DNA of 64,000 bases from Nitrospira moscoviensis (GTDB taxonomy: Bacteria; Nitrospirota; Nitrospiria; Nitrospirales; Nitrospiraceae). The stretch's first letter is position 1; the number at the start of each line of letters is the position of its first letter. Of this stretch, positions 32,314 through 54,058 are shown one piece after another. Where the stretch lies: the NCBI RefSeq assembly GCF_001273775.1, contig NZ_CP011801.1, positions 3,016,001-3,080,000 on the forward strand, given 5' to 3'. A program made the translations under genes and the position numbers. The notes beneath the pieces were generated by a model. It was not told the DNA's origin. It did no database searches and saw only the letters and a program-made list of their open reading frames with translations.

Positions 32314-32402
32314 CCCTTCGACAGACTCAGGGCAGGCTCCTTCGACAAGCTCAGGGTGAGCGGATGATTGCAGCAGACCCGCTCATGAATAACGCAGGCT
32401 AG
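32314..32402. repeat. Composite interspersed repeat with CTAG terminus
   Basis: Two imperfect copies of CCTTCGACARRCTCAGGG are followed by a segment (32363-32402) shared with the right end of the 51864-52126 element: GATTGCAGCAGA, then CGCTC, then TGAATAA, ending in GGCTAG. The terminal CTAG provides the TAG stop of the minus-strand gene at 32399. Confidence 0.6.
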
Positions 32403-51496: not shown

Positions 51497-51501
51497 CCGC
51501 G

Positions 51502-51861
51502 TCAATATTCGCAATGCAATTTCCTGGCGGCGGTTCTTAACGACTGATCGAACGTCCACAGTGAGACCCGTTCGAGCACCGCCGAAGCCAGCAGATGCAC
51601 ATCGATCCACCCCAAACCCTGCCCATAGAGTTTATGAGCCTCTATAAACGTGAGCAGCTCTTCATGGTCGATCGTGGGCGCAGCGGGCAGCATCGCGAGC
51701 GCCCCCAGCACTTGCGATCGCTGCCGTAAGTTCCCGCAAGCCAGTTCACCGATAACAAGCGGGTGACAGACGACCTGGTCATCGTCCAACAGCCGGCGAA
51801 GGGAAGGAGAGTCGACGCGGAAGTGATCGATCCATACCGACGTATCCACAAGAGTCGGCAT
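51502..51861 (-). CDS. vapC: VapC-type PIN ribonuclease toxin
   Basis: 119 residues. PIN acidic residues: LVDTSVWIDHFR (first Asp), HPLVIGELACG (Glu), GWIDVHLLASA and LWTFDQSL (last two Asp). Length fits a VapC. It cuts specific RNAs when freed from its antitoxin. The VapB gene lies upstream on the same strand, separated by about 260 bases of repeat element instead of the usual few-base overlap. Confidence 0.87.
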   Translation of the reverse strand: MPTLVDTSVWIDHFRVDSPSLRRLLDDDQVVCHPLVIGELACGNLRQRSQVLGALAMLPAAPTIDHEELLTFIEAHKLYGQGLGWIDVHLLASAVLERVSLWTFDQSLRTAARKLHCEY

Positions 51862-51863
51862 AC

Positions 51864-52126
51864 CTAGCCCGCATTATTCATGACGGTTCGTCGCGAAATC
51901 GCGGAGCCGCGTCGCGAGGTCCGCGGCTCGACGAATAAGTCGAGCCATGCTTGCGGACGCCGGCGAGTTGGTGAGCCGGCCGTGTCTTGGCGCGCGGAGC
52001 CCTGAGGACCCGAGGCGTACTCGTGCAGTACGTCGAGGGCCCGAAAGGCGAGCCCGCCGGCCGAAGGCTCGTCGCAGCAGCGGATCGGCGATTGCAGCAG
52101 AAGCGCTCGTGAATAATGCGGGCTAG
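51864..52126. repeat. CTAG-ended inverted-repeat element between vapB and vapC
   Basis: Left end CTAGCCCGCATTATTCATGA, right end TCGTGAATAATGCGGGCTAG: 19 of 20 bases are complementary. The 263-bp interior has no gene. The CTAG on the right forms the TAG stop of vapB; the left end lies two bases from the vapC ATG. Flanking CTAG copies look like a 4-bp target duplication of the sort made by IS5-group transposases. Confidence 0.7.
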
Positions 52127-52314
52127 GCAGAGCGACGCCGGTGGATGTCTTTAAGACGAGGTTCGCTGCCGCCCAGCCGGGCGAGCCGTTTGGCAGCTTC
52201 ACGTGAAATGAGGGCCTCAAGCCCCAGATGCACCAGCAGCGTCTTTTCTTGGACTCCCGTGAGCTTGATGGCCCGCTTGATCAGGTCATCATCGATGTTG
52301 AGCGTCGTGCGCAT
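52123..52314 (-). CDS. vapB: VapB-type antitoxin
   Basis: 63 residues, MRTTLNIDDDLIKRAIKLTG, the usual ribbon-helix-helix start of the VapB type-II group (RTTL-xIDDxL). ATG 52320 (MHM) is an alternative. No clear ribosome site. Its TAG stop is contributed by the repeat element that separates it from vapC, so the natural C-terminus may have been altered (ends KDIHRRRSA). Confidence 0.83.
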   Translation of the reverse strand: MRTTLNIDDDLIKRAIKLTGVQEKTLLVHLGLEALISREAAKRLARLGGSEPRLKDIHRRRSA

Positions 52315-52330
52315 ATGCATGAATATGCAT
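52315..52330 (-). promoter_or_regulatory. Palindrome at the vapB start (possible operator)
   Basis: ATGCAT-GAAT-ATGCAT is a perfect 6-bp inverted repeat around four bases overlapping the first vapB codons. VapB proteins usually repress their own promoter at such palindromes. Confidence 0.4.
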
Positions 52331-52402
52331 GCGACAGGCATCGTTTGTCAAACAACACGCCGCACCGCTCTCCTGCGCCACACCGCCGGAATCCGCGCCG
52401 CC

Positions 52403-54058
52403 TCACCGCTGCTGCTTGCCCGCCACGGCCTCCTGAATCGCCCCGTAAAGTTGCTCCACGGCGGCTTCCTTGGTCATCAATATGGACGCGCCGGCCTTCA
52501 GCATGGCGTGCTGATTGTCGTTCCCCGCGTTGACGGACAACCCGATCACGATCGTCTCCGGCCACCGCGCCGCGATCTGCGTCGTTGCGTCGATGCCATT
52601 CATGCGCGGCATATTGACGTCCATCACCACGATCCGCGGACGAAGCTCCCCCGCAAGCTTCACCCCTTCCGCCCCGTCCCCCGCTTCCCCGACGACCTCG
52701 ATGTCCGCATAGCCGTCCAGAATCGCGCGCAAGCCCTGTCGGACCATGGCGTGGTCGTCGACCAGCAAGACGCGAACTTTCGCGTCTTGGAGCTTTGAGC
52801 CAGAAAGCGTTGAGCGTTGAGGTCCAGCGTTTAGACTTCCGGAGTGTCTTACTTCGTTCTCAACCTCAATGCCCAATGCTTTCCCACTCAATGCTTCACT
52901 GCCGCCGAGCGGCAGCGTCAGCGTCGCCGTGGTCCCCTTCCCCCGCGCCGATTCGATTTCAAACGACCCGCCCAGCGCTTTCATCCGTTCCCGGATACTG
53001 TAGAGGCCGAATTTTGAGGAGAGACCACCCGTAGGTGTTGCAGCGGCGGCAGCAGCAGCGGCAGCAAGATCGAAACCCGCCCCTTCGTCGCGGACCTTGA
53101 TCCGCAACTCGCCGGCGTCATGGCTCATGGACACCGTCGCTTCGCCGGTGCCGGCATGTTTCCAGGAGTTGAGCAGGAGCTCGCGGACCGATTGGAACAG
53201 CAGCACCGTCTGGTCTTCGGGCAGCGTCAACCCGTTGTCCTCCGGCACCTGCACCGCCACCGTCACATCGTGTTTCTTCATGGATTCGCCCAGCCATTTC
53301 AAGCCGGCGGCGAGGCCATGGTCGCGCAAGACGGGTGGGCTCAACTCCGCCACCAGAGTGCGCGTGTAGGTGAGCGCGTCGGACAGCACGTCGTCCACTT
53401 GCTTCATGATCTCCACACAGGCCGGCAGCGGAAAGGCCAGACGTTTGCCTTGCCCGAGCTTCAGCTTGCCCAGCACCAGCATCTGTTGCAGATGGTCGTG
53501 CAGCTCCGTCGCGAGCCGACGCCGCTCCCGCTGCTCGGCCACAGTGAGCTGGGACGCCATTTGACGGACTTGTTCACGCTCACGGATGAGCTCCTCTGTA
53601 CGCTGCAGAAGTTCGGTCTGTGAGAGTTGGAGCTGCTCGAACGCCTCTTGGCGTTGAGCCAAGGCGGCACCCAGATTTGCATTCAGCCTTTCCAGCTCGG
53701 ACGGACTGCGCAGCGCCATCGCCTTGGGCAGGAGCGGCACCAGCAGCAGTCCCGTGGACAACGACAGTGTCGCCGTCGCCGCCTTGACCGCACCTTCGGT
53801 CCAATAATCCGGATGCCACACGGTCCAGGCCCCCAGCAGATGCGTCGTGCCGCAGGCAAAGATGAAGAGGCCGAACAACACGAACATCCAGCGGAACGGC
53901 ACATCGCTGCGTTTGTAGAGCAAGTAAAAGAGGCTGACAGAAATAATGTAGTACGCAGCCATGATGACGACATCCGATCCGACGTTGAGCCATAGCACAC
54001 CGGGCTGCCACAAAAAACATTGTCCGTGCGGCATGAAGGTATCCTGCAACTCGGTCAT
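52403..54058 (-). CDS. Ethylene-receptor-type hybrid histidine kinase (EBD-HisKA_3-HATPase-REC)
   Basis: 551 residues from ATG 54058 (GGAGACGCGCC upstream). Residues 25-115 are three helices matching plant ETR1: GSDVVIMAAYYIISVSLFYL, then RWMFVLFGLFIFACGTTHL and a third helix. The ETR1 residues needed for copper and ethylene (Asp25, Tyr32, Ile62, Cys65, His69) correspond to Asp29, Tyr36, Ile66, Cys69 and His73 with one constant offset. A coiled coil, HisKA_3 (LATELHDHLQQMLVLGKL) and an ATPase domain with an odd nine-alanine run follow, then a receiver (VVMDVNMPRMNG). The receiver is of NarL type but has no HTH after it. Ligand could be ethylene or another Cu(I)-bound gas. Confidence 0.85.
   Translation of the reverse strand: MTELQDTFMPHGQCFLWQPGVLWLNVGSDVVIMAAYYIISVSLFYLLYKRSDVPFRWMFVLFGLFIFACGTTHLLGAWTVWHPDYWTEGAVKAATATLSLSTGLLLVPLLPKAMALRSPSELERLNANLGAALAQRQEAFEQLQLSQTELLQRTEELIREREQVRQMASQLTVAEQRERRRLATELHDHLQQMLVLGKLKLGQGKRLAFPLPACVEIMKQVDDVLSDALTYTRTLVAELSPPVLRDHGLAAGLKWLGESMKKHDVTVAVQVPEDNGLTLPEDQTVLLFQSVRELLLNSWKHAGTGEATVSMSHDAGELRIKVRDEGAGFDLAAAAAAAAATPTGGLSSKFGLYSIRERMKALGGSFEIESARGKGTTATLTLPLGGSEALSGKALGIEVENEVRHSGSLNAGPQRSTLSGSKLQDAKVRVLLVDDHAMVRQGLRAILDGYADIEVVGEAGDGAEGVKLAGELRPRIVVMDVNMPRMNGIDATTQIAARWPETIVIGLSVNAGNDNQHAMLKAGASILMTKEAAVEQLYGAIQEAVAGKQQR

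Follow-up and report, generated by a model that had tools for sequence, protein, structure and literature searches.

A probable IS1380-type MITE with an embedded 71-nt structured unit in a vapBC operon of Nitrospira moscoviensis

We found that the vapBC toxin-antitoxin operon analyzed here contains, between its antitoxin and toxin genes, a MITE of a known kind; this is well supported, and the placement of the element is neat but expected. The MITE is very probably of the IS1380 type, and that identity, taken jointly with the insertion history that we propose at vapBC, makes a likely account as a whole. The element is common in Nitrospiraceae. Its most novel part is an embedded 71-nt unit, which covaries strongly and is without a known family or mobilizer. 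We found no description of either the MITE or the 71-nt unit in the literature (openly licensed PubMed Central papers). The window, as the term is used below, is the whole stretch of 64,000 nucleotides that was analyzed, positions 3016001-3080000 of a genome that consists of a single contig of 4589485 bases; the G+C content of the window is 63%.

The element and its insertion site

Both genes of the operon lie on the minus strand: vapB at 52123..52341 (72 aa; Pfam VapB_antitoxin, 1.1e-15) and vapC, with an intact frame and a PIN domain, at 51502..51861 (119 aa; Pfam PIN, 3e-10). This order, a VapB antitoxin followed by a PIN-domain VapC, is that of VapBC type II toxin-antitoxin operons, among which the locus probably belongs. 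No NCBIfam family matched the VapB product, and the NCBIfam VapC model gave the vapC product 31.1 bits, below its cut-off of 80. A VapC relative is known in a Nitrospira defluvii MAG.

The initial annotation described a 263-bp element with 20-bp inverted ends, bounded by CTAG, in the space between these genes. Its sequence and coordinates stand, and the inverted arms (51864-51883 and 52107-52126) do agree at 19/20 positions. What changes is the reading of the two CTAGs, which are the target duplication (51864..51867 on the vapC side and 52123..52126 on the vapB side), so that the element proper is 51868-52122, a long form of 255 bp without the duplication, and its ends are 16 bp long. These terminal inverted repeats are CCCGCATTATTCATGA at 51868..51883 (plus strand) and, with one mismatch, CCCGCATTATTCACGA at 52107..52122 (minus strand). 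The fit to the genes is as first described: the TAG stop of vapB sits inside the right-hand CTAG, and vapC starts two bases past the left-hand one. We read the CTAGs as target duplications because of the pattern of flanks in 33 end-paired copies (from 35 loci, after exclusion of L045 and L056, in which a second end is missing): the flanking tetranucleotides are identical in 17/33 copies (16 YTAR, 1 ATAG), are two different YTAR sequences in 6/33, and include at least one other tetranucleotide in 10/33.

The MITE also has a short form, of 188 bp without the duplication and 196 bp with duplications. Five clear copies and a divergent sixth (L023) are present in this genome; duplications included, the window copy measures 263 bp and the other four clear copies 196 bp. 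These four further copies dispose of the objection, anticipated in the initial annotation, that the element might have no second copy in the genome. Short (188-255 bp), multi-copy and without a transposase, the element is what is called a MITE; the 118-aa frame that runs through it has no Pfam match. The end motif, with up to three mismatches, has 3 matches in the window versus 0.32 expected (two at the element, and one solo fragment at 32383) and, with up to two mismatches, 14 matches in the genome versus 0 for a reversed control. In 53/79 genus genomes the 16-base end is found with at most one mismatch (831 matches, versus 5 for the reversed control). Some part of the 263-bp stretch is matched in 66/79 genus genomes, a count that includes matches to the 71-nt unit only, and the 196-bp short form, which is without that unit, has matches in 89/345 genomes and 19/155 genera of the phylum sample.

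Several smaller features of the MITE were observed. The solo fragment is one of its right end, at window 32359-32402; it is 81% identical and adjoins a TTCGACAAGCTCAGGGTGAGC repeat. At L037 and L048, a TTCGACARGCTCAGG-type repeat lies about 27 bases inside the MITE left end; repeats of more than one kind are therefore found in this MITE. Read outward, the vapC-side end (51864-51881, minus strand) is ATGAATAATGCGGGCTAG, a five-codon frame MNNAG for which the duplication supplies the stop, two bases before vapC, with no evident ribosome site; the other end of the MITE, read outward, would begin with GTG.

That a repeat element was inserted between vapB and vapC, as had been suggested at the outset, finds support both in further copies at other places and in the empty sites that relatives show. 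VapC relatives occur in 24/79 genus genomes, this one included, and 21/25 VapC loci were read, the partial matches L109-L112 being left out. The vapB stop, two bases and the vapC start follow one another in 18 of the 19 relatives whose vapC start could be read, while in the nineteenth, L105, six bases separate stop and start; among the 18, a GTG start was placed by eye in L101 and L104, and the start codon of L106 reads CTG. The end sequence, as an exact 12-base string, is absent from the 260 bases upstream of vapC in all 19 relatives. A further VapC relative, L143, has no vapB stop at that position. Insertion at CTAG, with duplication of that tetranucleotide, reproduced the arrangement of stop, two bases and start before vapC: since CTAG now stands on either side of the element, the vapB stop is kept, and vapC keeps its ancestral spacing. 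In the history that we propose, an IS1380-family transposase most likely mobilized the MITE in the past; entry of the MITE into a YTAR target (CTAG) overlapping the vapB stop, and duplication of that target, are borne out by the copies, the duplications and the empty sites.

Such a placement could also reflect a targeting mechanism that directs insertion to stop codons and so spares genes, and in the window copy and several others a reading frame does terminate at the duplication. For the 17 copies with a matched duplication (L023 was left out), we counted landings on stop codons and took the other YTAR sites of the flanks concerned as the expectation. With frames of at least 60 codons, 6/17 copies land on a stop versus 5.3 expected; with frames of at least 100 codons the count is 5 versus 2.5 expected (17 copies; small numbers), and with frames of at least 150 codons it is 4/17 versus 1.4 expected (again small numbers). 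The result for the longest frames favors targeting, but that for frames of at least 60 codons argues against it, as does the observation that 8/67 YTAR sites in the window fall on a stop anyway (27/67 lie outside the greedily chosen frames). We regard targeting as very unlikely. Selective insertion at stop codons was rejected: in this sample, with frames of at least 60 codons, it is not in excess of the YTAR background.

The probable mobilizer of the MITE

The mobilizer of the MITE is probably an IS1380-type transposase, to judge from sequence comparison, because the MITE ends resemble those of IS1380 elements of the genus, some of which likewise duplicate CTAG. Our sample consisted of 30 fetched loci with PF13701 transposases. 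Inverted end pairs were present in 6/30 of these loci, with each end showing 1-4 mismatches in 16 to the MITE end and with CTAG or TTAG adjoining on at least one side; a single end match (1-4 mismatches), in some cases probably due to chance, was present in 10/30, and none in 14/30. By eye, one IS1380 end equals the MITE left end at 19/20 bases. The terminal inverted repeats in the six paired loci are thus similar, not identical, to those of the MITE, and no IS1380 element bearing exactly the MITE's ends was found among the 30 loci. Only three of the six paired loci (L061, L062 and L063) have CTAG on both sides, and it is in these that the target duplication of the MITE is like that of an autonomous IS1380 element; the flanks are unequal in L059 (CTAG/CTAT), L060 (CTAG/TTAG) and L082 (TTAG/CTAA). 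The NCBIfam transpos_IS1380 proteins in L059, L060, L061 and L063 score 332-372 bits, with a cut-off of 180.

The distribution of the MITE was compared with that of IS1380. The 263-bp query has a match in 36/37 genomes with IS1380 versus 30/42 without (p 0.002). Because this query also counts matches to the 71-nt unit only, the comparison was repeated with the unit-free short form, which has matches in 23/24 IS1380-positive and 16/25 IS1380-negative genomes (p 0.011; 49 genus genomes). The co-occurrence of MITE and IS1380 survives the unit-free query, in weaker form, and genome completeness may confound it.

In this genome (G000), a search for PF13701 that was positive in other genomes gave no match; the L060 transposase, used as a query in a search without a positive control, had no match either; and no pair of ends with up to two mismatches brackets anything of insertion-sequence size. 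The MITE looks stranded here, because neither an IS1380 transposase nor an end pair of that size was found in the genome.

The lead given in the initial annotation was a different one, an IS5-group transposase. IS5 itself also uses a 4-bp YTAR target, which we count in favor of an IS5-group MITE. However, the ends and the target duplications look like those of IS1380-family elements instead, and the genome is without an insertion-sequence-sized pair of such ends, so that an IS5-group identity appears extremely improbable. Judged on the element ends alone, an IS5 origin is disfavored.

A larger structure with ends of this type was observed in G001 (L276:470-2569), where a 2.1-kb stretch with MITE-type ends has CTAG on both sides. 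This cassette holds an AAA_14/DUF4143 protein and a CopG antitoxin; an HTH protein lies alongside, and a Pfam scan of three frames showed no transposase. The MITE leads on to a cargo cassette that shares its ends.

Possible consequences for vapC

The insertion had been thought at first to uncouple translation of the toxin from that of the antitoxin. One part of that proposal fits our data: the direct adjacency of the genes in relatives has been lost. Against the other part, folding calculations suggest that the vapC start is hidden and that translation of vapB could reopen it. On the mRNA strand, both ends of the MITE are predicted to pair in a long helix (-161 kcal/mol, z -7.2). In these calculations, which describe equilibrium folding only, the cost of opening the vapC start is 27.9 kcal/mol when the element is present, 17.8 in the empty allele and 14.1 when a ribosome terminates at the vapB stop. 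With 12 shuffles of each kind, the mean cost is 14.5 kcal/mol for a shuffled vapB-side end and 26.1 for a shuffle confined to the interior; we attribute the predicted closing of the vapC start to the paired ends because only the shuffle of the vapB-side end removes it.

These energies allow the tentative proposal that translation of the antitoxin gates that of the toxin. The MITE ends would pair in the vapBC mRNA and so close the vapC start, which would become free again when a ribosome finishing at the vapB stop opened the base of the hairpin; the hairpin opened by vapB translation would in this way take the place of the former coupling by direct adjacency. Beyond the vapB stop, translation of vapC would still require that a new ribosome be loaded at that gene or the old one re-engaged, and neither allele has a strong Shine-Dalgarno match at the vapC start.

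The same paired-end helix might instead serve as a substrate: RNase III (or RNase E) would cut the hairpin, leaving separate vapB and vapC parts with different stabilities. The length and computed stability of the helix favor such cutting, and by analogy so do precedents in Correia and ERIC elements, as given in an excerpt of PMC10969869. We hold this outcome, too, to be possible and short of probable.

A further explanation is that the insertion silences or polarises vapC, by way of an untranslated GC-rich spacer and a hidden start, and that the element is a neutral passenger, loss of the toxin being harmless. In its favor, a simple consensus scan found no promoter-like site in the element able to serve vapC, the sole promoter-like match of the scan lying at the start of vapB. 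The vapC gene is interrupted by stop codons in L106, L107 and L108 (3/19 relatives with an alignable start), suggesting that the operon decays in the genus and that loss of vapC is tolerated. The VapC of the window also appears to change at a somewhat raised rate, as would be in keeping, too, with a relaxation in how the toxin is used: measured against outgroups, its pN is higher than that of the G001 homologue in 5/5 comparisons, and in the five comparisons with the L093 homologue one value is equal and one nearly equal. On the other hand, the consensus scan found no terminator-like site in the element, the vapC frame is intact with its PIN match, and pN (0.12-0.19) is far below pS (0.64-0.89) in ten of ten comparisons, of which several show saturation at silent sites. 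Silencing is accordingly a serious candidate, though the odds are somewhat against it, and RNase III cutting and plain silencing are about as likely as gating.

The vapBC operon with and without the 259-bp insertion, stop and start intact, constitutes a clean natural experiment: since the same operon exists in both forms, the need for translational coupling of toxin and antitoxin becomes measurable.

The 71-nt unit and comparison with known elements

What sets the window copy apart from the short copies is an insert containing the 71-nt structured unit, GAGG...GTGTC, at 51916..51986 (plus strand). The unit has three stems: stem A (51919-51924/51953-51958) is followed inward by stem B (51925-51932/51939-51946, with the loop GAATAA) and a bulge (51947-51952), and stem C lies at 51959-51964/51975-51980. 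Long-form MITE copies with nearly the same insert junction occur in G053 and G063. Of 42 sequences compared, the one most like the window unit, apart from that unit itself, lies in a long-form fragment of G063 (92%).

A covariance model built from six sequences found the unit in 25/79 genus genomes and in 62/345 phylum genomes (17/155 genera), with 12 copies in the genome studied here. Two-sided changes are seen at 18/20 pairs (100 matches, 96 distinct), and the covariation score of these 100 matches is 0.579, versus 0.170 in shuffles and at most 0.094 in slid versions, for an alignment fitted to the structure, which favors covariation. The first six sequences, aligned without structure, gave 13/20 pairs and a score of 0.597 versus 0.200. 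In roughly half of the sequences, two of the stem B pairs do not form. The sequence set has 83 sources, with L001, L113, L116, L138, L183 and L187 dropped as repeats and L137 as a weak match. Across 98 flanks, conservation starts at GAGG and stops at GTGTC. G-U pairs make up 30/1757 standard pairs of the unit, versus 18/225 in minimum-energy folds of nine tRNAs, which are a crude control. According to crude patterns, 40 of 118 unit loci (some of them overlapping) have nearby an end motif (CAGGATGTT-like) that belongs to a different repeat family, 6 have an IS1380-type end and 72 have neither.

We give roughly even chances to the reading that the unit is a mobile structured element, hitherto undescribed, of Nitrospirota, and that selection probably acts on it as folded single-stranded DNA and not as RNA. 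Its mobility is suggested by sharp bounds in unrelated flanks, by its presence in this MITE and in a second repeat family and by self-nesting seen by eye; its structure, by paired changes that conserve it across the class; and folded single-stranded DNA is favored over RNA because G-U pairs are scarce in the unit.

Other features of the unit loci were noted. One unit lies inside another, by eye, in L153, L168 and L169, and the unit is also present at L010, L012-L014, many of L113-L199 and others. A tRNA gene lies within about 300 bases of the unit in 5/118 loci (L171, L173, L176, L189 and L194), and in four of these, from four different genomes, it is tRNA-Leu; a smaller set of 60 loci contains these same five. 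The possible association with tRNA genes is a suggestive, uncontrolled and post hoc observation.

Candidate identities for the unit were sought among known families. Rfam scans of window 51500-52500 and of 18 loci gave no match at the 71-nt unit, and the only match inside the element is Ms_IGR-2 at 52002-52047 (E 0.89; 16.3 bits, with a cut-off of 45). A known Rfam family for element or unit was therefore rejected, nothing having exceeded threshold in the scans run, and the identity of the unit as a HEARO/IscB guide RNA was rejected on the lack of an Rfam match. Y1/RAYT was likewise rejected as the mobilizer of the unit: 0/30 fetched Y1 loci carry it, this genome has no Y1 match despite its 12 units, and the rank correlation between unit and Y1 counts is 0.19 (p 0.09). 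In G063, one unit pair was observed about 1.6 kb from a Y1 gene.

Among known systems, the REP sequences mobilized by Y1/RAYT are like the 71-nt unit in being short, discrete, multi-copy and hairpin-forming, and the 5' GAGG of the unit resembles what we take to be REP head motifs; unlike them, the unit has three stems. The MITE itself has several counterparts among short inverted-repeat elements. The ends of Correia and ERIC elements differ from its own, and the original paper on the Chunjie MITE of Geobacter uraniireducens reportedly announces in its title an insertion without disturbance of operon structure. In an excerpt of PMC10969869, Chunjie is like the present MITE in its size (178-235 bp) and in its insertion into an operon, an operon for phosphate uptake of which it disrupts one copy; Correia and ERIC elements are, in the same excerpt, likewise short inverted-repeat elements within transcripts, and may be cut by RNase III or alter RNase E access. 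The closest comparison is with the IS1380 family, whose elements in the genus share with the MITE the 16-bp ends (CCCGCATTATTCATGA in the MITE, roughly CCSGSATWATTCAYGA in the IS1380 elements) and the CTAG or TTAG flanks; unlike them, the MITE is without a transposase, measures 188-255 bp and has its own internal sequence. For IS1247, a member of this family, a 5-bp duplication is given in an excerpt of PMC3281130. The IS1380 family comprises the bacterial relatives of piggyBac, and in the excerpted text of PMC10813416 IS1380 transposases serve as the outgroup to piggyBac, which duplicates TTAA, occasionally CTAA or TTAG, and has the end motifs CCCTC, CCCTT, CCCAT or CACTA.
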